DNA from: Streptomyces sp. NBC_00285
GTDB lineage: Bacteria; Actinomycetota; Actinomycetes; Streptomycetales; Streptomycetaceae
Assembly (NCBI RefSeq): GCF_036174265.1
Contig: NZ_CP108055.1
Span: 8,680,001 to 8,744,000, forward strand
DNA: 64,000 bases
Direction: 5' to 3'
Shown: piece by piece, positions 39,581 to 51,876 of the stretch
Layout: the number at the start of each line of letters is the position of its first letter
Position numbering within the stretch: the stretch's first letter is position 1
Program-made: the position numbers and the translations under genes
The notes under the pieces: generated by a model
Databases searched by the model: none
Told to the model about the DNA's origin: nothing
What the model saw: the letters and a program-made list of their open reading frames with translations, nothing else

Positions 39581-39779
39581 CCCCGGACCGCCGCGGCGGC
39601 CGACAGGGCGGTACGGTCCCCGCCCGCGTACACGTTCATGGAGTGGCAGCCCCGGCGCGTGGGAAGCCGACGAGGGCCGGGCCGGCCTCGGCGGCCGGGC
39701 CGACGGCACGGGCGGAGGTTTCCGTTGTGGAGTGCGCGGCCGACGAAACTGTCGACGGCGGTTCCGTCACTCGTCCCAT
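39581..39779 (-). pseudogene. fdhD pseudogene with large internal deletions
   Basis: ATG 39779 begins MGRVTE exactly like the intact fdhD, overlapping the end of the fdhF pseudogene. It then jumps, with a frame change, to codons for AVDSFVGRALHNGNL (family [16 protein letters not shown]), and again to AEAGPALVGFPRAG and MNVYAGGDRTAL near the C-terminus. The CxxC segment is lost. It is a decayed second copy beside the decayed formate dehydrogenase alpha gene. Confidence 0.8.
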
Positions 39780-40591
39780 GTCCGGCCTCCCTTCCGCAGT
39801 GCCACGAGGGCCATCTTCTCGATCCGGATCGCCACGGCCCCGAACTCCACGGCCCCGGCAATCGGACAACCGGCGTCGGCAGCAGGCCGGTTGGTGTCCA
39901 ATGCGTCCGGCGGACGTACCGTCATGAACGCCAGGCCGGTTCGCAGCGCAGGATCCACCCACACCGGTGCCGCCGTCGCACCTCGCCGGGTCACGACCCG
40001 CACCTCCTCGCCGACCACCACGCCATAGCGCTCGGCGTCCTCCGGGCTGAGCTCGACGCACTCGGCGCGTCGCAGCGATGACGCCGAACCTCCCCTCCGC
40101 AGCTGTGTGTTGGCGGAGTGGAGGCGATGCCCTTCGGTGAGCCGGACCGGGTAGGCCTCGTCCGTGAGGTCGACGGGAGGGGGGTGCCCGACGAGGTGGA
40201 ACGGCGTGCGCCGCCCTCCATCGGTGTGATCGCGGCCGGTGAGCAGCGACAGATCGGACAGCGCGCGGCGGCCGTCAACGCACAGCTCGGCCACCTCGAA
40301 GGCCCGCGCCGGCTCACCCCGGACGTAGGCGTGCGCCAACCCCCTCATGACAGCGGCCGGTACGCCCGTCACCTTCACCGCGAGCGACAACGTCCAGGGC
40401 TCGACGAGCCTTTCGTACTCCGCGAAACCGGAGGTCGCGCGCTCGATGTACCTCCGGTCGATCAGATCCGCCCGGATGATCTCCCGACCGATCGCATGGG
40501 CCATCGGGACCTGACTTCCGGTCTTCGGCCGGAGCCGACCGTCTGCACCGACGCCGTGGGCACCGACGCCGCGGGTACCCGGTTCCGTCAT
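39767..40591 (-). pseudogene. Formate dehydrogenase alpha-subunit pseudogene (fdhF-like)
   Basis: The frame is open for 274 codons but holds only pieces of a molybdopterin oxidoreductase. After about 30 odd residues come MAHAIGREIIRADLIDRRYI (mid-protein), then a jump to TPFHLVGHPPPVDLTDEAYP and the C-terminal cofactor-binding domain (YPVRLTEGHRLHSANT, CPIAGAVEFGAVAIRIEK). The 4Fe-4S domain, catalytic Cys/Sec loop and most of the middle are absent. Its start overlaps the reductase stop (ATGA) and its end overlaps the fdhD remnant, so the original order was reductase-fdhF-fdhD. It may be annotated as a short molybdopterin protein but is unlikely to work. Confidence 0.78.
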
Positions 40592-41559
40592 GCGGCGGCC
40601 CGGAGGGCGAGGAGGTCGGAGAGGGCATGGACGGTGCGCAGCGTCGGGACGTCCACACCGGTGATCTCCGCCAGCTCGATGACGGCGGTGAGGAGGACGT
40701 CGAGTTCGAGCGGCTTGCCGCGCTCCAGGTCCTGGAGGGTGGAGGTGCGGTGGTCGCCCACTCGTTCGGCGCCGGCGAGACGCCGTTCGATGGAGACGCC
40801 GACGGTGCAGCCCAGGGCCTCGGCGACGGCGAGCGTCTCGGCCATCATGGTCTCGATGACTTTGCGGGTACCTCCGTGCAGGCACATCTGCCGCATGGTG
40901 GCGCGAGCCAGTGCGCTGATCGGGTTGAAGGAGATGTTCCCGAGCAGTTTGAGCCAGATGTCGTCGCGCAGGTTCGCCTCGACCGGGGCCTTGAGACCGC
41001 CGGCCCGCATGGCCTCACCGAAGGCGAGACACCGCGGGGAGAGACTGCGGTCGGGCTCACCGACGGAGAACCGGGTGCCTTCCAAGTGCCGTACGACACC
41101 GGGAGCTTCGAGCTCGGTGGCGGCATACACGACACATCCGATCGCCCGGGAGGGCGCGAGCACTGCACTGACCGCACCGCCCGGGTCGACGCTCTCGATG
41201 CGGTGGCCGTCGTAGGGGCCGTCGTGCCGGTGGAAGTACCACCAGGGGATACCGTTCTGGGCCGCGATGACCGCGGTCGAGTCGTGGAGAAGGGGCTCGA
41301 TGAGCGGCCCACACGCCGCGTACGAGTTGGCCTTCAGCCCGAGGAAGACGTAATCGACCGCACCGATCTCGGCCGGGTCGTCGGTGGCGTGCACATGGGC
41401 GGTGAAGTCACCGCGGGAGCTGAGGACCTGGACGCCGTGTCGGCGCATGGCGGCCAAGTGGGGTCCGCGGGCGACGAGGTGGACGTCGGCGCCGCCTTGA
41501 TGGAGCGCTGCGCCGACGTAGGCGCCGATGGCACCGGCGCCGAGGATTGCGACTTTCAT
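40588..41559 (-). CDS. Ketopantoate reductase-family protein, candidate oxalyl-CoA reductase
   Basis: 323 residues of the ApbA/PanE fold. N-terminal ILGAGAIGAYVGAAL binds NADP; FLGLKANSY and LKLLGNISFNPISALARA are the family's Lys and Asn/Ser substrate motifs. In Methylobacterium a PanE homologue (PanE2) reduces oxalyl-CoA to glyoxylate. This gene sits among OFA transporters, formyl-CoA transferases and formate dehydrogenase genes, with a GntR operator 60 bp upstream, so that role is more likely than pantothenate synthesis. This remains inference. It is the intact head of an operon whose other genes have decayed. Confidence 0.82.
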   Translation of the reverse strand: MKVAILGAGAIGAYVGAALHQGGADVHLVARGPHLAAMRRHGVQVLSSRGDFTAHVHATDDPAEIGAVDYVFLGLKANSYAACGPLIEPLLHDSTAVIAAQNGIPWWYFHRHDGPYDGHRIESVDPGGAVSAVLAPSRAIGCVVYAATELEAPGVVRHLEGTRFSVGEPDRSLSPRCLAFGEAMRAGGLKAPVEANLRDDIWLKLLGNISFNPISALARATMRQMCLHGGTRKVIETMMAETLAVAEALGCTVGVSIERRLAGAERVGDHRTSTLQDLERGKPLELDVLLTAVIELAEITGVDVPTLRTVHALSDLLALRAAA

Positions 41560-41628: not shown

Positions 41629-41794
41629 GATGGAGTGAGTGCTGAGCAAGAGCCGTGACGTCATCAAGCCGGTGAGCTGCCGATACGCACCCGTACGACC
41701 TGCACTCCCGGTGGTTGTGCGCCGTAGACTGTAGGCGAAAGCCAATTCATAATCGGCTCAGATGCAGCGACGACGCTGTTCAGGAGGGACCGCG

Positions 41795-42472
41795 ATGTTG
41801 CCGACGACAGGACTGCCGTACGGGGCGGTGCCCAGGCTGGAACGTCCTGGTCCGTTGCGTGATCGTGTGTACGGGGCGTTGCTCGAGCTGATCACGACGC
41901 GGGCGCTTCAACCGGGTCAGCATCTTGTGGAGAGTGAGCTGGCCGGTCATCTGGGGGTGTCGCGGCAGCCGGTGCGGGAGGCGTTGCAGCGGTTGAACAC
42001 GGAGGGGTGGGTGGATCTTCGGCCCGCTCAGGGCGCGTTCGTGCATGAGCCCACGGATGAGGAGGCTGATCAACTCCTCACCGTGCGGACGTTGTTGGAG
42101 GCTGAGGCGGCCGGGCTGGCTGCGGCGAACGCGGGCAGTGCGGGTATCGCCGCTCTGGAGGAGTTGTGTGCGCTGGGGGAGGGCGCGGTTGCCGCGGATG
42201 ACGTGGACGGCGCGGTGGCCCTGAATGCCCGGTTGCACGCCAAGGTGATGGAGTTGGCGGGCAACGCGGTCCTGGCCGAGTTGGCGGCGCAGGTGGACCG
42301 TAGGGTGCGTTGGTACTACACGCCGATCGCCCGGCAGCGTGGCCGGCAGTCCTGGATCGAACACCGTGAGCTGATCGCCGCGATCGCAGACCGCGACGAA
42401 CAGCGCGCCACCGCGGTGATGCGCGCCCACACGGAACACACGCGGAAGATGTATCACGACCGCGAGAAGTAG
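41795..42472 (+). CDS. GntR/FCD-family transcriptional regulator 1
   Basis: 225 residues; ATG 41795 with AGGAGGG six bases upstream. The winged helix shows HLGVSRQPVREALQRLNTEG, the FadR-type recognition segment, and the C-terminal FCD domain has the His residues expected for metal or acid binding (ALNARLHAKV, EHRELI, MRAHTEHT). It is closely similar to the regulators at 54545 and 56263 and to the broken copy at 23451. It diverges from the reductase-fdh locus with operator B between. FCD regulators typically answer small carboxylic acids, so oxalate, glyoxylate or formate are reasonable candidates. Confidence 0.92.
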   Translation: MLPTTGLPYGAVPRLERPGPLRDRVYGALLELITTRALQPGQHLVESELAGHLGVSRQPVREALQRLNTEGWVDLRPAQGAFVHEPTDEEADQLLTVRTLLEAEAAGLAAANAGSAGIAALEELCALGEGAVAADDVDGAVALNARLHAKVMELAGNAVLAELAAQVDRRVRWYYTPIARQRGRQSWIEHRELIAAIADRDEQRATAVMRAHTEHTRKMYHDREK

Positions 42473-42872: not shown

Positions 42873-44288
42873 TCAGGCCGTCGCTTGTTGCTGCGGCGCA
42901 GGGGCGCCGCCCCGCGTCCGCCCCGGCTGCCGCAGCAGGAGGGTGATCGCCGCCGCGAGCATGGAGGTGACGCCGGCCAGGGCGTACGCCCCGTCGTAGC
43001 CCCAGGCCGCGACGACCATCGAGCCGAGGCCACCGCCGAACAGGCCGCTGATCAGCTTGCCGCTGTACACCAGACCGTAGTTGGAGGCGTTGAAGTTCTC
43101 CCCGAAGTAGTCCGGGGTGAGCGCCGCGAACAGCGGGTAGAACGCGCCTCCGCCGAACCCGGAGAGGAACGCGAAGACCAGGAACAGCGACTGGCTCCTG
43201 ATGTCGCCCGCCCAGATCACACCGAACTGGGCGAGACCCAGCACGACGATCACGAACACCAGCGTGGACTTGCGGCCCCACTTGTCGGACAGCCAGCCCA
43301 CCACCCCGCGGCCGACGCCGTTGATGACCGCCATGACGCCCATGGAGGAGGCCGCCACCAGCGGGCCGAAGCCCACCTCCTTGGCGTAGTCGACCTGGAA
43401 GGAGATGCCGAAGATCGAGACTCCCGCGGTCATGACGAGCGCGACCCACATGAGGGGAAGCATGCCGGTCCTGATGGCCTCCTTCGGCGTGAACTGCCGT
43501 ACCGCCGGAGGGTTCTTGGCGAGCGCGACGGCTCCCTTCCCGCTGCCGCCGTAGGTGAGCGGGTCGATGTCCGCGGGCCACCAGTTCTTCGGAGGGTCCT
43601 TGAAGAAGAACGCGCATACGACGACCACGATCAGGATGTAGCAGCCGATGAGGTCCAGGACCCGGTGGTAGTTCGCGGTGTCGAAGCCGTAGTTGAAGAT
43701 GAAGATGAAGGGCAACGATCCGTACGCGAAGCCGCCGTTGACGAACCCGGTCCTCGCTCCCCGGCGTTCGGGGAACCACTTGCCGACCATGTTGATGCAG
43801 GTCGCGTAGACCAGCCCGGCGCCGATACCGCCGACGACGCCGAATCCCAGGATCGCCAGCAGGACGTTGTCGAGGTGGGACAGGGCGAGGAACCCGAGCA
43901 TGCACAAAACCGAGCCGATGTACATGGCCTGACGGGCCGTCAGGATGCCCTTCTCCCGCAGCCAGCCCGCCGGGAAGGCGATGCCGGCCTGGAAGAAGAC
44001 CCAGACGCTGAGGATCCAGAAGGTGTTGCTCTGCGTCCAGCCGTGGGCGTGGGACAGGGTGTCCTCGGCCGAGCCGTACGCGTACTCGAAGACGCTGATG
44101 GCCATCATGGTGAGCCAGGGCAGATACACCATGAGTGTGCGTGAATGGCCGAGGATGTCCCGGTCGGTCTCGCCGACGCGGTAGACGCGGCCGCCCGCGT
44201 CGGTCACTTCTCGGTAGGGACGATGTGCGGCGGTGGAGTGTGCGGTCCTGTCGGTCTCGCTGCGTGCTGCGTACGGATCTGCCGTCAT
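42873..44288 (-). CDS. OFA-family MFS transporter, second of a tandem pair
   Basis: 471 residues with twelve membrane segments and a cytosolic N-terminus (TDAGGRVYRVGETDRDIL). GLVYATCINMVGKWFPERRG is the OFA-family cytoplasmic loop, and FFKDPPKNWWPADIDPLTYG is shared with its neighbour. One base separates its start from the stop of the upstream transporter, so translation is coupled. It is expected to carry oxalate, formate or both. Similarity to the upstream partner throughout points to tandem duplication followed by divergence. Confidence 0.88.
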   Translation of the reverse strand: MTADPYAARSETDRTAHSTAAHRPYREVTDAGGRVYRVGETDRDILGHSRTLMVYLPWLTMMAISVFEYAYGSAEDTLSHAHGWTQSNTFWILSVWVFFQAGIAFPAGWLREKGILTARQAMYIGSVLCMLGFLALSHLDNVLLAILGFGVVGGIGAGLVYATCINMVGKWFPERRGARTGFVNGGFAYGSLPFIFIFNYGFDTANYHRVLDLIGCYILIVVVVCAFFFKDPPKNWWPADIDPLTYGGSGKGAVALAKNPPAVRQFTPKEAIRTGMLPLMWVALVMTAGVSIFGISFQVDYAKEVGFGPLVAASSMGVMAVINGVGRGVVGWLSDKWGRKSTLVFVIVVLGLAQFGVIWAGDIRSQSLFLVFAFLSGFGGGAFYPLFAALTPDYFGENFNASNYGLVYSGKLISGLFGGGLGSMVVAAWGYDGAYALAGVTSMLAAAITLLLRQPGRTRGGAPAPQQQATA

Positions 44289-44289
44289 G

Positions 44290-45681
44290 TCAGGCCATTT
44301 CCTCGCCGAGCGGTTGCGGGTTGGGGACGATCCTGCGAGTGGTCCTGGGCCTGCCCGGCGCCTTCAGGAACAGCGCCAGCACCGCGGAGCCCAGGCCGAT
44401 GCATCCGGCTATGACGAACGCCCCCTCGTAGTCCCACACGCCGACCACGATCGAGCCGACGCCGGAGCCCACCAGGCCCGAGATGAGCTTCGAGCTGTAG
44501 ACCATGCCGTAGTTGGAGGCGTTGTTGTTCTCACCGAAGTAGTCGGCCGTCATCGCGGCGAACAACGGGAAGATCGCGCCGCCGCCGAAGCCGGAGACCA
44601 TGGAGCAGAAGAGGAAGAACGGCATACTGCCCATCTGGCCCGAGACCAGTACACCGAACTGGGCGGTACCGAGCACCAGACACACGATGATCAACGTGTG
44701 GCGGCGGCCGAACTTGTCGGAGATCCAGCCGATGACGCCGCGGCCCGTGCCGTTGACGATCGCCTTGAGCGACATGGCCGTGGCCACGATCCCGCCCGCG
44801 AAGCCCATGTCCTTGCCGAACGGCACCTGGAAGGCGATCCCGAAGATGTTGATGCCGGCCGTACAGAGCAGACAGAACCACATCATCCACAGGACGGGCG
44901 TGCGCGCGGCCTCCCTCGGGGTGTACTGCTTGACGGCCGGCGGGTTCTTCTCCAGCGCCCGCCGGATCTTCGGGTCGTCGGTCATCTTGAGCGGGTCGAC
45001 GTGCGGCGGCCACCAGTTCTTCGGCGGGTCCTTGAAGAACCAGCCCGCGAACGCCACCACGGCGCAGCAGATGAGACCCACCGTCACCAGGACGCCCCGG
45101 TAGTTGGTCAGGTCCATGTACGAGGTGAACAGGAAGACGAAGGGCACCGAGCCATAGGCGAAACCGCCGTTGACCATGCCGGTCTTGCCGCCCTTGCGCT
45201 CCGGATACCACTTGCCGACCATGTTCACGCAGGTCGCGTAGACGAAGCCGGCGCCGATGCCGCTGCACACACCGAATCCGAGATAGGCGACGATCACGTT
45301 CGGCGCGAACGCGAGCGAGAGGTAGCCCAGGATCGTGCCCAGCGCGCCGACCATCATCGCGTAGCGGGCCGGGAGCTTTCCGCTCTCCCTCAACTGCCCG
45401 GCGGGGAAGGCCACGGCCGCCTGGAAGAACACCCAGACGCCCATCAGCCAGAAGATGTGCCCACTGCTCCACAGATGCGCATCGTGCAGTGTGTCCTCGG
45501 CCGACGTGAACGCGTACTCCGAGGAACTGATGCCCAGCATGCCCATCCACGGGAAGAGCACCATGGTCCATCGTGGCCGTCCCATGATGTGCCGGTCGGT
45601 CTCGCCGATCCGGTACACACGGCCGTTGCGGTCCGTCACCTCCCTGAAGGTGGCGGACGACGAGTAGTCGATGGTTGTCAT
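44290..45681 (-). CDS. OFA-family MFS transporter, first of a tandem pair
   Basis: 463 residues from ATG 45681 (MTTIDYSSSATFREVTD); AAGGAG lies about 12 nt upstream, and a TTG at 45690 is an alternative. Twelve hydrophobic segments, the loop GFVYATCVNMVGKWYPERKG and the FFKDPPKNWWPPHVDPLKM loop place it in the oxalate:formate antiporter group. It follows formyl-CoA transferase copy 1 on the same strand by 173 bp, so frc and both carriers may form one transcript from the divergent promoter near 47.1 kb. Confidence 0.88.
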   Translation of the reverse strand: MTTIDYSSSATFREVTDRNGRVYRIGETDRHIMGRPRWTMVLFPWMGMLGISSSEYAFTSAEDTLHDAHLWSSGHIFWLMGVWVFFQAAVAFPAGQLRESGKLPARYAMMVGALGTILGYLSLAFAPNVIVAYLGFGVCSGIGAGFVYATCVNMVGKWYPERKGGKTGMVNGGFAYGSVPFVFLFTSYMDLTNYRGVLVTVGLICCAVVAFAGWFFKDPPKNWWPPHVDPLKMTDDPKIRRALEKNPPAVKQYTPREAARTPVLWMMWFCLLCTAGINIFGIAFQVPFGKDMGFAGGIVATAMSLKAIVNGTGRGVIGWISDKFGRRHTLIIVCLVLGTAQFGVLVSGQMGSMPFFLFCSMVSGFGGGAIFPLFAAMTADYFGENNNASNYGMVYSSKLISGLVGSGVGSIVVGVWDYEGAFVIAGCIGLGSAVLALFLKAPGRPRTTRRIVPNPQPLGEEMA

Positions 45682-45854
45682 AGTCTTCAAGCACTCCTTG
45701 CGTCGAAAGATCTGGCCAGCGCCCCCTGTCCAAATTCCTTTCGTGCGCGCACGGATCCCGGGGTGCGCCGACGCGCACCGCCGCCGGACCCCGTGCTCAT
45801 TCACCTCATGGACCACCGCCCAACGGCCCGGGAACGCGGCTCCGGTTCACCACG

Positions 45855-47087
45855 TCAGATCACCCCGCCTTTCTTGAGAAGCCGCAACTCCTCGTCGCCG
45901 ATCCCGAGTTCGTCGATGTAGATGTCTTCGTTGTGTTGGCCGAGGAGGGGTGGGGTGGTGATGTGGGTGGGTGAGTCGGAGAGTTTGAGGGGGTTGCCGA
46001 CGGTGGTGAAGGTGCCCCGTTGGGGATGGGTGACCTTGACGATCATGTCGTTCGCGGCGAGGGAAGGGTCTTCGATGATCTCTTTCGGGGACAGGATCGG
46101 CCCGCACGGAATGCTGTGTGTGGTCAGCTGTTCCAGGACCTGCCATTTGGGCAGGGCTGCCGTCCATTCCTCGATCAGCTGGAACATCTTCGCCAGTTTC
46201 GGCAGTCGTGCCTCGGGGGTGGACCACTCGGGGTCCTGGGCCAGTTCGGGCCGCCCGATCAGCTGGGCCAGGGGCCTCCAGCCGGCGGGCTGGACGATGA
46301 CATACACGTAGTCGTTGGGTCCGCCCGGTGCGCACCGCAGTGCCCAGCCGGGCTGGCCGCCGCCGGAGGCGTTGCCGGAACGGGGCACCTCGTCGGTGAA
46401 GTCCTCGTTCGGGTACTCCGCCAGCGGGCCGTGGTCGAGGCGCTGCTGGTCACGCAGCTTGACCCGGCACAGGTTGAGCACCGCGTGCTGCATCGCCACG
46501 CTCACCCGCTGGCCCCGCCCGCTCCTCTCGCGCTGCAGCAGCGCGGCCAGGATCCCGGCCACCACATGCACACCGGTCCCGGAGTCGCCGATCTGCGCAC
46601 CGGTCGCCATCGGCGGCCCGTCCTCGAAGCCGGTGGTGGCCATCGAGCCGCCCATCGCCTGCGCGATGACCTCATAGGCTTTGAAGCCTGTGTACGGGCC
46701 GTCCCCGAACCCCTTGATCGAGGCATACACGATCCGCGGGTTGATCTCCCTGATCCGTTCCCACGTGAACCCCATCCGCTCCACCGCACCCGGCGCGAAG
46801 TTCTCCACCAGTACATCCGCACCCCGGATCAACGCGGTCAGGATCTCCCGCCCCCGATCCGTCTTGGTGTTCAGCGTGATGCTGCGCTTGTTGCAGTTGA
46901 GCATCGTGAAATACAGCGAGTCCGTATCCGGGACATCCCGCAGCTGCCGGCGCGTGATGTCCCCGCCCGGCGCCTCCACCTTCACCACATCCGCCCCCAG
47001 CCACGCCAGCAACTGCGTCGCCGACGGACCCGACTGCACATGCGTCATATCCAGCACCCGCACACCCTCAAGAGCCAATCCCGACAC
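45855..47087 (-). CDS. frc: Formyl-CoA:oxalate CoA-transferase, copy 1
   Basis: 410 residues from GTG 47087 with GAGGTGGG upstream. Class III CoA-transferase: LEGVRVLDMTHVQSGPSATQ, the catalytic Asp presumed in NEDFTDEVP/LNCNKRSITL surroundings, and FAPGAVERMGFTWE match Frc. It moves CoA from formyl-CoA (or another donor) to oxalate, giving oxalyl-CoA in the cytosol. Codons 4-395 are almost identical at DNA level to copy 2 (50096) in inverted orientation; only the first few and last about 16 codons differ (ending LRLLKKGGVI). It probably leads the frc-OFA-OFA transcript, with operator C upstream. Confidence 0.9.
   Translation of the reverse strand: MSGLALEGVRVLDMTHVQSGPSATQLLAWLGADVVKVEAPGGDITRRQLRDVPDTDSLYFTMLNCNKRSITLNTKTDRGREILTALIRGADVLVENFAPGAVERMGFTWERIREINPRIVYASIKGFGDGPYTGFKAYEVIAQAMGGSMATTGFEDGPPMATGAQIGDSGTGVHVVAGILAALLQRERSGRGQRVSVAMQHAVLNLCRVKLRDQQRLDHGPLAEYPNEDFTDEVPRSGNASGGGQPGWALRCAPGGPNDYVYVIVQPAGWRPLAQLIGRPELAQDPEWSTPEARLPKLAKMFQLIEEWTAALPKWQVLEQLTTHSIPCGPILSPKEIIEDPSLAANDMIVKVTHPQRGTFTTVGNPLKLSDSPTHITTPPLLGQHNEDIYIDELGIGDEELRLLKKGGVI
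45903..47078 (-). repeat. Long inverted repeat, left arm (1,176 bp, frc copy 1)
   Basis: Reverse-complementary to 50102-51277 over the full 1,176 bp with only a handful of substitutions noticed on reading. It begins at TTGGCTCTTGAGG and ends at GAACTCGGG in the gene direction, so the edges lie inside the two coding regions. Arms this long and similar can recombine and invert the 3,023-bp spacer. Confidence 0.85.
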
Positions 47088-47154
47088 AACCCACCTCACT
47101 GGTCCGTTGCCTTGAGCGTCCTGGCTGAGTCGGTCCTGACCCCTGTTCGGCACA

Positions 47155-47184
47155 TTGCATACAGTCGACGAATACTGTATGAAG
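47155..47184. promoter_or_regulatory. GntR-type operator C, two overlapping sites
   Basis: TTGCATACAG (47155-47164) matches the shared decamer; CTGTATGAAG (47175-47184) matches its reverse complement with one mismatch. Together they form arms CATACAGT and ACTGTATG around 8 bp. The site lies between frc copy 1 and the sucC-sucD chimera and could control both directions. Confidence 0.65.
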
Positions 47185-47269
47185 ATTGTTATCCCGCATC
47201 CGATGGGTGATGTCCAGGGGGCGTGCAGCACTTTTCAGTCGTGCATCACTTTCAGACGGGAGCCTCACC

Positions 47270-48361
47270 ATGGACCTGTACGAGCATCAGGCCCAGGCCC
47301 TCTTCGAGGAACACGGAATCCCGGTGCCCAGGGCGGAGGTCACCGACTCGCCCCGGGAGGCCCGCGCGATCGCCCGCAGGCTCGGTGGCAGTGTCGTCGT
47401 CAAGGAGCAGGTCAAGACCGGTGGCCGGGGCAAGGCGGGCGGTGTTCGGCTCGGCGCCGACCCGGCTGGGGCCGAGCGGGCGGCACGCCGGATCCTCGGC
47501 ATGGACATCAAGGGACACACGGTCGGCAAGGTCATGCTGGCCCAACCGGTCGACATCGAGAGCGAGTTCTACATCGCCTACGTCCTCGACCGGGCCGCAG
47601 GCCGCTTCCTCGCCATCGCATCGGCGCAGGGCGGCATGGACATAGAGGAGGTCGCCGCGCTCCGCCCGGAGGCGGTCGCCCGTATCCACGTCGACCCCGC
47701 CGAGGGAGTCACCTCGGCGAAGGCGGGCGAGATCGCCGAGGCGGCCGGACTGCCACCGGGGACCGTCGACGTCCTCGTACGACTGTGGGAGGTGCTGGTC
47801 CACAAGGACGCGGTCCTAGTCGAGGTCAACCCCCTGGTCCGCACCCGGCAGGGGCACATCCTCGCCCTGGACGGCAAGGTCACCCTCGACGACAACGCCC
47901 GCTTCCGGCAATCCCGTCGAGGTACCGAGAGCATCGCGTACGACGATCCGCCGGAGGCGGCCGCAGCCGCGAAGGGCCTCAACTACGTCAAGCTCGACGG
48001 CGAGGTCGGCGTCATCGGCAACGGCGCCGGCCTGGTCATGTCCACCCTCGACGTGGTCGCCGGCTGCGGAGCCCGTCCCGCCAACTTCCTCGACATCGGC
48101 GGCGACGCCGAGGAACGGGCGGCCGCCTACATCCGAGAGCACGTCACCAAGCCCGTCGTCGGCTACATCGCCGGATTCACCGCACCCGAGGGCCGGACCA
48201 TGGGCCACGCGGGCGCCATCGTGTCCGGTTCGGCGGGCACGGCGCAGGCGAAGAAGGCGGCGCTCGAGGCGGTCGGCGTCAAGGTCGGGAACACCCCCAC
48301 CGAGACGGCCCGCCTCGTGCTCGCCCTGCTGGACACGCTCCGCGAGGCCCCTCAGGCCTGA
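47270..48361 (+). CDS. SucC-SucD chimeric succinyl-CoA ligase-like protein
   Basis: 363 residues; ATG 47270 with GGGAG 8 nt upstream. Residues 1-275 are SucC (beta): [20 protein letters not shown], the ATP-grasp with VEVNPLV, then [16 protein letters not shown] and PANFLDIGG. From about 279 the sequence becomes SucD (alpha): [25 protein letters not shown] and [11 protein letters not shown] with the phosphohistidine (His313), to its C-terminus. The join lies at the shared IGG (about 48095-48103). The SucD CoA-binding Rossmann domain and SucC C-terminal half-domain are missing. It may be a damaged operon remnant or a novel ligase serving CoA supply for Frc. Confidence 0.85.
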
Positions 48362-48456
48362 CCCGGAACCACACGGCGGCGGACGGAGATGCGTCCGGCC
48401 CCGCCGCGCGCCCCCGTACCCCGCCCCCGACTGTGCACCGAGAGCGGAGACATCGC

Positions 48457-50013
48457 ATGACCATCACCCTCAACTCCACCCGTCTCGTGGTGAAGTCCGG
48501 TTCCTCCTGGAACGACGCCTGGCAGCGCTGCCTCACCGTCGCCCCCGAGGCCTTCCGGGACGACCGCGTCCTCAACCTCTGGGCCGCCGCCTGGCAGGCC
48601 GACGGCCGGGCGCTGCCCGCCACCAGCCCCGTCGACGGCAGCCCGATCGCCGGCCCGCCGCGCCTGGACCAGGAAGCCGCCCACCAGGCCGTCCGCGCCT
48701 CCCTGGACCAGCACCGCGCCTGGCGGCACATACGGCTCGAAGAGCGCCGGGCCCGCGTCGCGGCCACCCTCGACGCCCTCACCCAGCACCGCGAACTCCT
48801 CGCGCTCCTGCTCGTCTGGGAGATCGGCAAGCCCTGGCGGCTCGCGCAGGCGGACGTGGACCGGGCCATCGACGGCGTGCGCTGGTACGTCGACGGCATC
48901 GAGCCGATGGTCGAGGGCCGCGCCCCGCTCGACGGGCCGGTGTCCAACATCGCCAGCTGGAACTACCCGATGAGCGTGCTCGTTCACGCCATGCTGGTGC
49001 AGGCACTGGCGGGCAACGCGGTCATTGCCAAGACCCCGACCGACGGCGGCGTAGCCTGTCTGACCCTGGCCTGCGCGCTCGCCGCCCGCGAGGGAATCCC
49101 CGTCACCCTGGTCAGCGGCAGCGGGCGAGAGCTGTCCGAGGCGCTGGTGCGGGCGCCCGAGATCGGCTGTGTCTCATTCGTCGGCGGTCGCGACACAGGC
49201 GCCGCCGTCGCTACGGCCGTCGCCGACCTCGGCAAGCGCCATGTGCTCGAACAGGAGGGACTCAACACCTGGGGCATCTGGAACCACACCGACTGGGACG
49301 CGCTCACCGCCGTCATCCCCAAGCTCTTCGACTACGGCAAGCAGCGCTGCACCGCCTACCCGCGGTTCGTCGTCCAGCGCGAGTTGTTCGACGAGTTCCT
49401 GGCGGCCTACCTCCCCGCGGTGCGCACCCTGCGCCTCGGCCACCCACTGGCCGTCGAGCACCCCGACGACGCCTACCCCGCACTGGACTTCGGGCCGGTG
49501 ATCAACGCGGCAAAGGCGAAGGAACTGCGCGACCAGGTCGCCGAGGCGATCAGTCGCGGAGCCGTTCCCGTGCACCGGGGCAGCGAGGCGGACGCCCGCT
49601 TCCTGCCCGGCCAGGACACCTCGGCGTACGTCCAACCGGTCACCCTTCTCAACCCACCCCCGTCCTCACCCCTGCACCACGCGGAGCCCTTCGGCCCGGT
49701 CGACACCATCGTCCTGGTCGACACGGAGGCGGAACTGCTGGCCGCGATGAACGCCTCCAACGGCGCTCTGGTGGCCACCCTGTCCACCGACGACCGGGCC
49801 ACCTTCGACCGGCTCGCCCCGCAGATCCGCGCGTTCAAGGTCGGCCACGGCAAGCCGCGCTCCCGAGGTGACCGGGACGAACTGTTCGGCGGGTTCGGCG
49901 CCTCATGGAGCGGCGCCTTCGTCGGCGGCGAGTTGCTGGTGCGCGCGGTCACCCGGGGCCCGGCCGGCGAGCGGCTTCCCGGCAACTTCTCCGAGTACCA
50001 GCTGATGCCGTGA
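48457..50013 (+). CDS. Aldehyde dehydrogenase-family protein
   Basis: 518 residues from ATG 48457 with CGGAGA upstream. The ALDH fold shows NIASWNYPM (oxyanion Asn), TLVSGSGRELSEAL and SFVGGRDTGAAVA in the NAD domain, Glu in VLEQEGLNTWGIW and catalytic Cys in GKQRCTAYPRFVV. The Glu motif is EQEGLN rather than ELGG, so it belongs to a divergent branch. Between the SucCD chimera and frc copy 2 it may act on glyoxylate or another C2 aldehyde, possibly CoA-dependent; this is inference. Start and end are clear and length is normal. Confidence 0.82.
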   Translation: MTITLNSTRLVVKSGSSWNDAWQRCLTVAPEAFRDDRVLNLWAAAWQADGRALPATSPVDGSPIAGPPRLDQEAAHQAVRASLDQHRAWRHIRLEERRARVAATLDALTQHRELLALLLVWEIGKPWRLAQADVDRAIDGVRWYVDGIEPMVEGRAPLDGPVSNIASWNYPMSVLVHAMLVQALAGNAVIAKTPTDGGVACLTLACALAAREGIPVTLVSGSGRELSEALVRAPEIGCVSFVGGRDTGAAVATAVADLGKRHVLEQEGLNTWGIWNHTDWDALTAVIPKLFDYGKQRCTAYPRFVVQRELFDEFLAAYLPAVRTLRLGHPLAVEHPDDAYPALDFGPVINAAKAKELRDQVAEAISRGAVPVHRGSEADARFLPGQDTSAYVQPVTLLNPPPSSPLHHAEPFGPVDTIVLVDTEAELLAAMNASNGALVATLSTDDRATFDRLAPQIRAFKVGHGKPRSRGDRDELFGGFGASWSGAFVGGELLVRAVTRGPAGERLPGNFSEYQLMP

Positions 50014-50095
50014 GGCGGGTCCGGGCGACGCTCCGTGACGGGGCGCCGCCCGGCCACCGGCGAACACACGACGACGCAGCGATGGGGTGGCGAGC

Positions 50096-51325
50096 ATGAC
50101 GTTGGCTCTTGAGGGTGTGCGGGTGCTGGATATGACGCATGTGCAGTCGGGTCCGTCGGCGACGCAGTTGCTGGCGTGGCTGGGGGCGGATGTGGTGAAG
50201 GTGGAGGCGCCGGGCGGGGACATCACGCGCCGGCAGCTGCGGGATGTCGCGGATACGGACTCGTTGTATTTCACGATGCTCAACTGCAACAAGCGCAGTA
50301 TCACGCTGAACACCAAGACGGATCGGGGGCGGGAGATCCTGACCGCGTTGATCCGGGGTGCGGATGTACTGGTGGAGAACTTCGCGCCGGGTGCGGTGGA
50401 GCGGATGGGGTTCACGTGGGAACGGATCAGGGAGATCAACCCGCGGATCGTGTATGCCTCGATCAAGGGGTTCGGGGACGGCCCGTACACAGGCTTCAAA
50501 GCCTATGAGGTCATCGCGCAGGCGATGGGCGGCTCGATGGCCACCACCGGCTTCGAGGACGGGCCGCCGATGGCGACCGGTGCGCAGATCGGCGACTCCG
50601 GGACCGGTGTGCATGTGGTGGCCGGGATCCTGGCCGCGCTGCTGCAGCGCGAGAGGAGCGGGCGGGGCCAGCGGGTGAGCGTGGCGATGCAGCACGCGGT
50701 GCTCAACCTGTGCCGGGTCAAGCTGCGTGACCAGCAGCGCCTCGACCACGGCCCGCTGGCGGAGTACCCGAACGAGGACTTCACCGACGAGGTGCCCCGT
50801 TCCGGCAACGCCTCCGGCGGCGGCCAGCCCGGCTGGGCACTGCGGTGCGCACCGGGCGGACCCAACGACTACGTGTATGTCATCGTCCAGCCCGCCGGCT
50901 GGAGGCCCCTGGCCCAGCTGATCGGGCGGCCCGAACTGGCCCAGGACCCCGAGTGGTCCACCCCCGAGGCACGACTGCCGAAACTGGCGAAGATGTTCCA
51001 GCTGATCGAGGAATGGACGGCAGCCCTGCCCAAATGGCAGGTCCTGGAACAGCTGACCACACACAGCATTCCGTGCGGGCCGATCCTGTCCCCGAAAGAG
51101 ATCATCGAAGACCCTTCCCTCACCGCGAACGACATGATCGTCAAGGTCGACCATCCCCAACGGGGCACCTTCACCACCGTCGGCAACCCCCTCAAACTCT
51201 CCGACTCACCCACCCACATCACCACCCCACCCCTCCTCGGCCAACACAACGAAGACATCTACATCGACGAACTCGGGCTCTCACGGGCCGAGTTGCCGCA
51301 GCTCAAGGAGCAGGGCGTCATCTGA
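50096..51325 (+). CDS. frc: Formyl-CoA:oxalate CoA-transferase, copy 2
   Basis: 409 residues from ATG 50096 with GGGGTGG upstream. In the repeated region it differs from copy 1 by about three residues (for example RDVADTDS against RDVPDTDS, and VKVDHP against VKVTHP), plus a different C-terminal tail (SRAELPQLKEQGVI). Same expected reaction: CoA transfer to oxalate. It follows the aldehyde dehydrogenase and precedes carbonic anhydrase in the rightward operon, so each divergent transcript from operator C has its own frc. Confidence 0.9.
   Translation: MTLALEGVRVLDMTHVQSGPSATQLLAWLGADVVKVEAPGGDITRRQLRDVADTDSLYFTMLNCNKRSITLNTKTDRGREILTALIRGADVLVENFAPGAVERMGFTWERIREINPRIVYASIKGFGDGPYTGFKAYEVIAQAMGGSMATTGFEDGPPMATGAQIGDSGTGVHVVAGILAALLQRERSGRGQRVSVAMQHAVLNLCRVKLRDQQRLDHGPLAEYPNEDFTDEVPRSGNASGGGQPGWALRCAPGGPNDYVYVIVQPAGWRPLAQLIGRPELAQDPEWSTPEARLPKLAKMFQLIEEWTAALPKWQVLEQLTTHSIPCGPILSPKEIIEDPSLTANDMIVKVDHPQRGTFTTVGNPLKLSDSPTHITTPPLLGQHNEDIYIDELGLSRAELPQLKEQGVI
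50102..51277 (+). repeat. Long inverted repeat, right arm (1,176 bp, frc copy 2)
   Basis: Partner of 45903-47078. Both arms have the same length with no indel seen, and identity stops abruptly at both ends within the coding sequence, as expected for recent duplication or ongoing gene conversion rather than ancient paralogy. Confidence 0.85.
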
Positions 51326-51354: not shown

Positions 51355-51876
51355 ATGTCGACTTCAGGACCCCGAACCGAGGCGGTCACCGACCGGCTCG
51401 TGGAAGCCAACCGCGCCTACGCCGCCGGATTCACCGACCCCGGCATGGGCGCCCGCCCCGTCCTGGGCGTGGCCGTCGTGGCGTGCATGGACGCCCGCCT
51501 CGACCTGCACGCCGCACTCGGACTGGAGCTCGGCGACTGCCACACCATCCGCAACGCGGGCGGAGTCGTCACCGACGACACGATCCGCTCTCTGACGATC
51601 AGTCAGCGGGCGCTCGGCACCCACAGTGTGGCGCTCATCCATCACACCGGCTGCGGTCTCCAGACCCTGACGGAGGAATTCCGGCACGAGCTTGAGCTGG
51701 AGGTCGGCCAGCGTCCCGCATGGGCGGTGGAGGCCTTCCGGGACGTCGACCAGGACGTACGACAGTCCATGCAGCGGGTGCGCACCTCGCCCTTCCTCCC
51801 GCACACCGACGATGTGCGGGGGTTCGTCTTCGACGTGACGGCAGGACTGCTGCGGGAGATCACACCGAACTCCTGA
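51355..51876 (+). CDS. Beta-carbonic anhydrase
   Basis: 173 residues, ATG 30 bp after frc copy 2. Zinc ligands and the Asp-Arg dyad are clear: Cys-x-Asp-x-Arg in VVACMDARLD and His-x2-Cys in HHTGCGLQ, with CHTIRNAGGVVTDD between them. It interconverts CO2 and bicarbonate in the cytosol. Its place at the end of the oxalate operon fits disposal or reuse of CO2 formed by oxalyl-CoA decarboxylation and formate oxidation. Confidence 0.9.
   Translation: MSTSGPRTEAVTDRLVEANRAYAAGFTDPGMGARPVLGVAVVACMDARLDLHAALGLELGDCHTIRNAGGVVTDDTIRSLTISQRALGTHSVALIHHTGCGLQTLTEEFRHELELEVGQRPAWAVEAFRDVDQDVRQSMQRVRTSPFLPHTDDVRGFVFDVTAGLLREITPNS

Follow-up and report, generated by a model that had tools for sequence, protein, structure and literature searches.

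A sucC2–sucD2 hybrid gene in a Streptomyces oxalate cluster, probably the scar of a young deletion

An uninterrupted open reading frame in the oxalate cluster of Streptomyces sp. NBC_00285 encodes a protein that begins as the beta subunit of succinyl-CoA ligase, SucC, and ends as the alpha subunit, SucD. This hybrid is very probably the scar left by a young deletion in a redundant sucC2–sucD2 paralogue and not a new kind of enzyme. The window, by which is meant the whole stretch of DNA analysed, comprises 64,000 nucleotides (contig NZ_CP108055.1, positions 8,680,001 to 8,744,000); its relevant features are collected in Table 1.

Table 1. The hybrid gene, its control region and its neighbours, in window coordinates
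Feature	Position	Strand	Basis or remarks
sucC2–sucD2 hybrid open reading frame	47270..48361	+	363 aa; ATG 47270 to TGA 48361, uninterrupted
SucC-derived part, codons 1–278: ATP-grasp domain and first part of SucC ligase domain	47270..48103	+	structure, Pfam and NCBIfam matches
SucD-derived tail, codons 279–363, with GHAGAI loop and His313	48104..48358	+	structure, protein and NCBIfam matches
10-bp motif ATCGGCGGCG, deletion junction	48095..48104	+	comparison with parent genes in 8 relatives
GGGAG, probable ribosome-binding site of hybrid gene	47258..47262	+	read from sequence; kept in 5/5 aligned relatives
Perfect palindrome CATACAGT-N8-ACTGTATG, probable operator, in divergent frc1/hybrid intergenic region	47158..47181	.	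role inferred
frc1, formyl-CoA:oxalate CoA-transferase family	45855..47231 (listed frame; the real start is probably more internal)	-	TIGR03253 653.6 bits, cut-off 504.2
frc2, formyl-CoA:oxalate CoA-transferase family	50087..51325	+	TIGR03253 652.8 bits, cut-off 504.2
Aldehyde dehydrogenase (ALDH) family protein, gene after hybrid	48457..50013	+	PF00171
OxlT-like MFS transporter 2	44290..45816	-	MFS_1; oxalate/formate antiport models below cut-off
OxlT-like MFS transporter 1	42873..44288	-	MFS_1; oxalate/formate antiport models below cut-off
Carbonic anhydrase family protein	51355..51876	+	Pro_CA PF00484

The preliminary description of this DNA had proposed an open sucC–sucD chimera with a ribosome site, joined at residues 278/279 and carrying its phosphohistidine at His313, and Pfam, NCBIfam and PDB alignments bear this out. 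Residues 1–278 are SucC and residues 279–363 are a SucD tail, the two being joined in frame at an Ile-Gly-Gly common to both subunits. In Pfam, ATP-grasp_2 (PF08442, 211.9 bits) covers residues 2–190, the last third alone of Ligase_CoA is matched at residues 292–336, and the CoA-binding domain has no match anywhere in the hybrid. The NCBIfam SucC model NF001913 matches residues 1–284 at 350.2 bits, below its cut-off of 370, and TIGR01016 scores 289.5 bits against a cut-off of 375.55; the SucD model NF004230 matches residues 275–354 at 116.7 bits (cut-off 336), and TIGR01019 scores 106.2 bits (cut-off 353.2). Automatic naming would probably miss the identity of the hybrid, since it fails the cut-offs of the models for both subunits. 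Alignments to bacterial and mitochondrial SucC chains in the PDB end at residue 282–288 of the hybrid and those to isolated ATP-grasp domains at residue 213, while residues 208–274 of E. coli SucD (2nu6_A) align with hybrid residues 275–341. At the protein level the SucC part is 87–90% identical to sucC2, and the SucD tail 91–98% identical to sucD2, of the related loci L004–L009. The strong family match of both halves, together with the presence of the parent genes in relatives, indicates that the layout is not due to chance.

Those parent genes are found separately throughout the closer relatives examined. SucC and SucD-tail matches lie apart in all 29 loci L004–L032, and sucC2 is followed by a separate sucD2 in each of the 13 stretches that were mapped; two more distant loci, L043 and L045, have no SucD match within the stretch compared. 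The window's whole gene order, with oxlT1-oxlT2-frc1 on one strand and sucC2-sucD2-ALDH-frc2-carbonic anhydrase on the other, recurs in five of the 13 mapped stretches (L113, L114, L115, L117 and L119), which are the nearest relatives spanned throughout, frc1 in L113 and both frc genes in L119 being broken by N runs or gaps. Two further stretches, L116 and L033, agree with the window up to their contig ends. The remaining six (L118, L035, L036, L040, L034 and L037) are less similar: neither frc2 nor the carbonic anhydrase gene follows ALDH in L118, L035 or L036 despite there being room, the L040 stretch ends 1.8 kb after ALDH, and L034 and L037 extend no further than sucD2.

The junction itself was compared in eight loci, L033 from Streptomyces canus and seven others of the same genus (L113, L114, L115, L116, L117, L008 and L009). 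In all eight, sucC2 and sucD2 adjoin and their Ile-Gly-Gly codons lie 950 bp apart. The hybrid reads GAC ATC GGC GGC GAC at the join; in the relatives, SucC2 has GAC ATC GGC GGC (GGA GGC in L114) followed by a Gly codon, and SucD2 has GAG ATC GGC, then GGC or GGG, then GAC. This comparison of codons places the join within ATCGGCGGCG, which is present exactly in both parent genes of L113, L116, L117 and L008 and with one mismatch in one or both parent copies of L114, L115, L033 and L009. The endpoints of the deletion are thus marked by a short direct repeat, its parent copies being read from relatives; as a motif ATCGGCGGCG is not rare, occurring twice in the window against 0.75 expected. Removal of 950 bp between these repeats reproduces the layout of the hybrid exactly. 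Although a loss of 950 bp is not divisible by three, the frame is restored, because sucC2 and sucD2 lie in different frames and homologous codons are joined.

Searches of the hybrid's own assembly agree with a loss of this sequence. When the deleted stretch, in its L115 version, was compared with the 10.3-Mb genome (2 contigs, completeness 100), the missing 950 bp were not found elsewhere, the matches being another sucC/sucD pair, 75% identical, and five of fewer than 80 bases. Likewise, no separate intact sucC2 and sucD2 besides the hybrid were seen in the assembly; their presence here was named in the preliminary description as a ground for refutation. Apart from the hybrid, the genome contains only a single sucC and a single sucD, located near 6.63 Mb, with 58% identity over the SucC part.

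Little time appears to have passed since the deletion. The hybrid contains no stop or frameshift, so strong decay, the other ground for refutation named there, is not seen in the hybrid itself. Nonsynonymous/synonymous differences in the SucD tail number 1/9 to L114, 1/8 to L115, 2/8 to L033 and 8/10 to L113, and the dN/dS of the SucC part is 0.23–0.32 against L113, L114, L115 and L033, compared with 0.20–0.35 among those four. In eight three-sequence relative-rate comparisons, the SucC part has 10–14 amino acid changes unique to the window and 6–8 in the sister, with chi2 values of 0.47–2.33 and hence no significant excess; the intact neighbour ALDH has 10–13 changes in the window lineage and 1–7 in the sisters, with chi2 above 3.84 in six of eight comparisons. 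There is thus no sign, in this comparison of the SucC part with ALDH, of decay specific to the hybrid. Five residues of the hybrid are unusual at positions that are at least 98% conserved in 119 SucC2 proteins (R9Q, A46E, A62G, V102I and L228P). The same count among 15 comparably isolated SucC2 proteins gave 0–2 in twelve, and 4, 5 and 11 in the other three, so the excess in the hybrid is small. Positions 46 and 62 are invariant in 50 SucC rows and position 228 is at least 90% conserved; Gly occurs at 46 in L042, outside the 50-row set, and Gly at 62 also in P0086. An old pseudogene was considered and rejected, as dN/dS, the counts at conserved positions and the relative-rate count gave no strong decay.

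The absence of stops and of measurable decay suggests that the deletion is probably recent. In our reading of these sequence comparisons, the parent would have been under normal constraint for most of the branch and the deletion would be recent. The same data fit a hybrid retained for its function equally well, and Glu185 and His313 are kept, which speaks against the scar.

The following course of events is proposed. The ancestor would have carried an intact sucC2–sucD2 pair inside a conserved oxalate-use cluster. A 950-bp deletion between short repeats in the homologous Ile-Gly-Gly codons, its position and length given by the comparison above and its process presumably slippage or microhomology joining, would then have left codons 1–278 of sucC2 followed by the last 85 of sucD2. 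The homologous position of the two repeats in their genes would have preserved the frame automatically. The resulting protein would retain the ATP-grasp domain and the phosphohistidine loop and very probably lack the ability to make acyl-CoA. The pair near 6.63 Mb is probably the housekeeping one, and loss of the second ligase should be tolerable, since that pair and the other genes of the oxalate cluster are kept. The open frame would persist because the deletion is recent, and not through selection on the hybrid. The proposal that the gene is the fossil left when a deletion joined homologous domains of the adjacent sucC and sucD is strongly supported by the parent pair in relatives, the missing 950 bp and the 10-bp motif in both parent genes.

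The surroundings of the hybrid point to an oxalate route that is otherwise present. Both neighbouring formyl-CoA transferase genes, already recognized as such in the earlier account, pass TIGR03253, and an oxalyl-CoA decarboxylase (TIGR03254, 982.7 bits, cut-off 739.4) is encoded at chromosome positions 8,745,615–8,747,270, 1.6 kb past the window end. The ALDH protein matched 37 NCBIfam models, all 25 of those listed being below cut-off. It may be guessed that sucCD2 served this route by supplying an acyl-CoA donor from ATP. In excerpts of one study (PMC3720670), neither E. coli YfdE nor Acetobacter aceti UctC is reported to yield a product when given succinyl-CoA and oxalate, a result that cautions against simply taking succinyl-CoA as the donor.

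A shared operator had also been suggested. A perfect palindrome does lie between the divergent frc1 and hybrid genes, and the part that it plays there is probably that of an operator; its one match in the window, found with no mismatches where up to three were allowed, compares with 0.03 expected. The palindrome is the same in L115, L113 and L116, its aligned part is the same in L117, and the L033 stretch ends short of the site. The control region as a whole is almost unchanged in relatives, which says little about the hybrid since the region also serves frc1. Matches to GntR-type regulator models, all short of the cut-off, were obtained for the gene at 41762–42472, whose product may bind the palindrome. 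Scans of 47000–48500 for sigma-70-type promoters and terminators gave nothing, a result that carries little weight in a genome of this kind.

Several other features of the cluster were observed. The two frc genes form an inverted repeat of 1,179 bp (45900–47078 and 50102–51280), 99% alike and with 3,023 bp between the arms. In the window, L114, L115 and L117, frc copies within a genome are 96.8–98.1% identical, compared with 87.7–94.5% for same-position copies between genomes, a pattern indicative of concerted evolution through gene conversion. The segment that separates frc1 from frc2 could also invert. A ketopantoate reductase-like gene on the minus strand (40588–41559; NF005089, 461.8 bits, cut-off 223) adjoins the oxalate transporters. 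The oxalyl-CoA-reducing enzyme of methylotrophs is PanE-like, and by analogy the product of this gene may act on oxalyl-CoA. Reduction of oxalyl-CoA to glyoxylate by aerobic methylotrophs is described in part of the same source (PMC3720670). An open reading frame at 39767–40885, also on the minus strand, has pieces that resemble formate dehydrogenase alpha (71.6 bits, cut-off 666.25) and looks like a remnant.

The deletion has removed SucC2 residues 279–376 and SucD2 residues 1–211, the common Ile-Gly-Gly lying at SucD2 212–214. As had been noted, the CoA-binding Rossmann domain is lost with SucD2 1–211. Part of each subunit's ligase domain is also gone, so that the hybrid does not have a complete C-terminal SucC ligase domain with FGGIT. 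FGGIT (SucC2 306–310) and SGTLTY (SucD2 158–163) are both absent, and by homology these probably correspond to the tips of the two power helices. According to excerpts on a related enzyme, the catalytic histidine loop is stabilised by two such helices, in subdomains 2 and 5, and a sulfate touches residues at both of their tips (PMC11494057). The phosphohistidine loop is retained, beginning at residue 312 and with His313 in the place of E. coli SucD His246, as is the ATP-grasp domain with Glu185, which aligns with E. coli SucC Glu197. In the 2nu6_A alignment Asp275 occupies the place of Glu208 beside the phosphohistidine, a conservative change; Glu208-alpha and Glu197-beta stabilise the phosphohistidine, as stated in part of a review (PMC10342173). 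Lacking the CoA-binding domain, the two putative helix-tip motifs and the partner ligase domain, the hybrid very probably cannot make acyl-CoA.

Structure prediction with AlphaFold gave the hybrid an overall pLDDT of 80.1, the ATP-grasp domain being modelled well and the SucD tail, residues 281–363, having block means of only 32–64; in the intact SucC2, residues 281–376 have block means of 82–94 and the overall value is 88.5. The low confidence of the tail may be partly technical, since the alignment supplied for the hybrid fold consisted of SucC rows only. A fold search with the hybrid model returned succinyl-CoA synthetase beta chains first, at a TM of about 0.64 over the query, and added little beyond sequence.

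The junction is confined to a single genome among those searched. A pattern for it, allowing up to two mismatches, was found in one of 392 genomes of the genus, namely the hybrid's own, and a backward control gave zero throughout. Matches to the protein at E 1e-100 or better occur in 171 of the 392 (own included), and among those matches listed all except its own end at query residue 282–287, as an ordinary sucC would. Similarly, when 199 genomes including its own were searched at the DNA level, all except its own among the matches listed end by base 840 of 1,092. In the protein database the same junction was absent from the best 120 of 7,999 matches to the whole hybrid (largest coverage 79%) and from the best 120 of 8,000 matches to residues 236–363 (largest coverage 81%). 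Both protein searches were judged by coverage and by reading 5 and 8 sequences, and as the window's own protein is itself not among the matches listed, they do not prove that close strains lack the hybrid. Searches of the open-access literature, partly of titles and abstracts, found no such sucC–sucD hybrid. A conserved novel enzyme family was rejected as a likely reading, with the junction in one of 392 genomes and in none of the proteins listed.

Within the scar reading it is conceivable, if rather unlikely, that the product is inert or mildly interfering, for instance through non-productive pairing with subunits of the other pair, and is heading to loss. The parts needed by an alpha–beta pair are gone, and the hybrid has more changes at highly conserved SucC2 positions than 13 of the 15 comparable proteins; against this, the excess is small, one of the 15 having the same number and one having 11. 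Selection for a working protein is improbable. Such a protein might be a single chain that takes phosphate from ATP onto its own His313 and then hands it on, or it might serve as a subunit alongside the SucD or SucC encoded by the other pair; the open frame, the ribosome site, the conserved control region, the well-modelled ATP-grasp domain, the retained Glu185 and His313 and the lack of any decay signal are all compatible with it. It must be set against the restriction of the junction to one genome in 392, the loss of the CoA-binding domain, FGGIT and SGTLTY, the poorly modelled SucD tail and the unusual residues A46E, A62G and L228P in the SucC part. The working single-chain phosphotransfer/CoA-ligase module envisaged in the preliminary description thus finds nothing positive beyond the open frame. 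It is more doubtful still that selection in this lineage maintains the hybrid as a folded protein which phosphorylates itself at His313 from ATP without CoA chemistry and serves either to carry phosphate or to restrain the cell's other succinyl-CoA ligase. An active hybrid would show that the histidine can be phosphorylated independently of the enzyme's CoA half, although nothing here points to activity. An assembly error concealing separate intact sucC2 and sucD2 genes is the most improbable of these explanations: the inverted frc repeat is a difficult place for short reads, but a junction repeat of only 10 bp is much too small for an assembly to collapse on it, the assembly is complete and in two contigs with the missing 950 bp nowhere in it, and the flanking gene order is that of the five nearest relatives.

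The hybrid offers a clear example of how homologous neighbouring subunit genes can fuse in frame in one step, which is possible because the codons common to both genes provide the repeat and at the same time set the reading frame. In two other proteins, known here from their protein sequences, sucC2 likewise runs into sucD2 in a single frame as the result of an internal deletion. P0123 (Streptomyces sp. NPDC058308, 285 aa) passes from SucC2 200–293 into SucD2 at about residue 100, and P0179 (202 aa) from SucC2 257–356 into SucD2 at about residue 194. Their different junctions, and the absence of the SucC N-terminal part from both as listed, indicate independent events. A search of the same 392 genomes for a fusion of the P0123 type gave none at E 1e-125, a run which had no positive control and so shows nothing. 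Longer fusions such as P0124 and P0127 look like frame-shifted read-throughs of the adjacent pair. In P0002, a SucC2, a segment of 22 residues immediately ahead of the ligase domain is duplicated in tandem. Taken together, three fusions at different junctions suggest that Streptomyces can dispense with its second sucCD pair, which would have been lost repeatedly by in-frame deletion.

Among known systems, the hybrid is closest to the ADP-forming succinyl-CoA synthetase SucC/SucD, and in particular to the sucC2–sucD2 pair of the Streptomyces oxalate cluster, with which it shares high identity and the same gene neighbours. It differs from that pair in being one chain instead of two and in falling below the NCBIfam cut-offs of both subunits. 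The SucC-like parts of citryl-CoA synthetase (6hxq_B) and ATP-citrate lyase (6hxj_A) match it by sequence and by fold. Subunits of both these enzymes carry complete domains, whereas the hybrid does not. It also resembles single-chain ACD enzymes (acyl-CoA synthetase, NDP-forming) such as Nmar_0206, in which the ATP-grasp and phosphohistidine parts are likewise found in one polypeptide; excerpts of the report on that enzyme describe subdomain shuffling as a definitive trait of the ACD superfamily (PMC11494057). Nmar_0206 retains all five subdomains (PMC11494057). The hybrid, by contrast, is without subdomain 1, and a single spliced domain, in which subdomains 2 and 5 are each partial, stands in place of those two.
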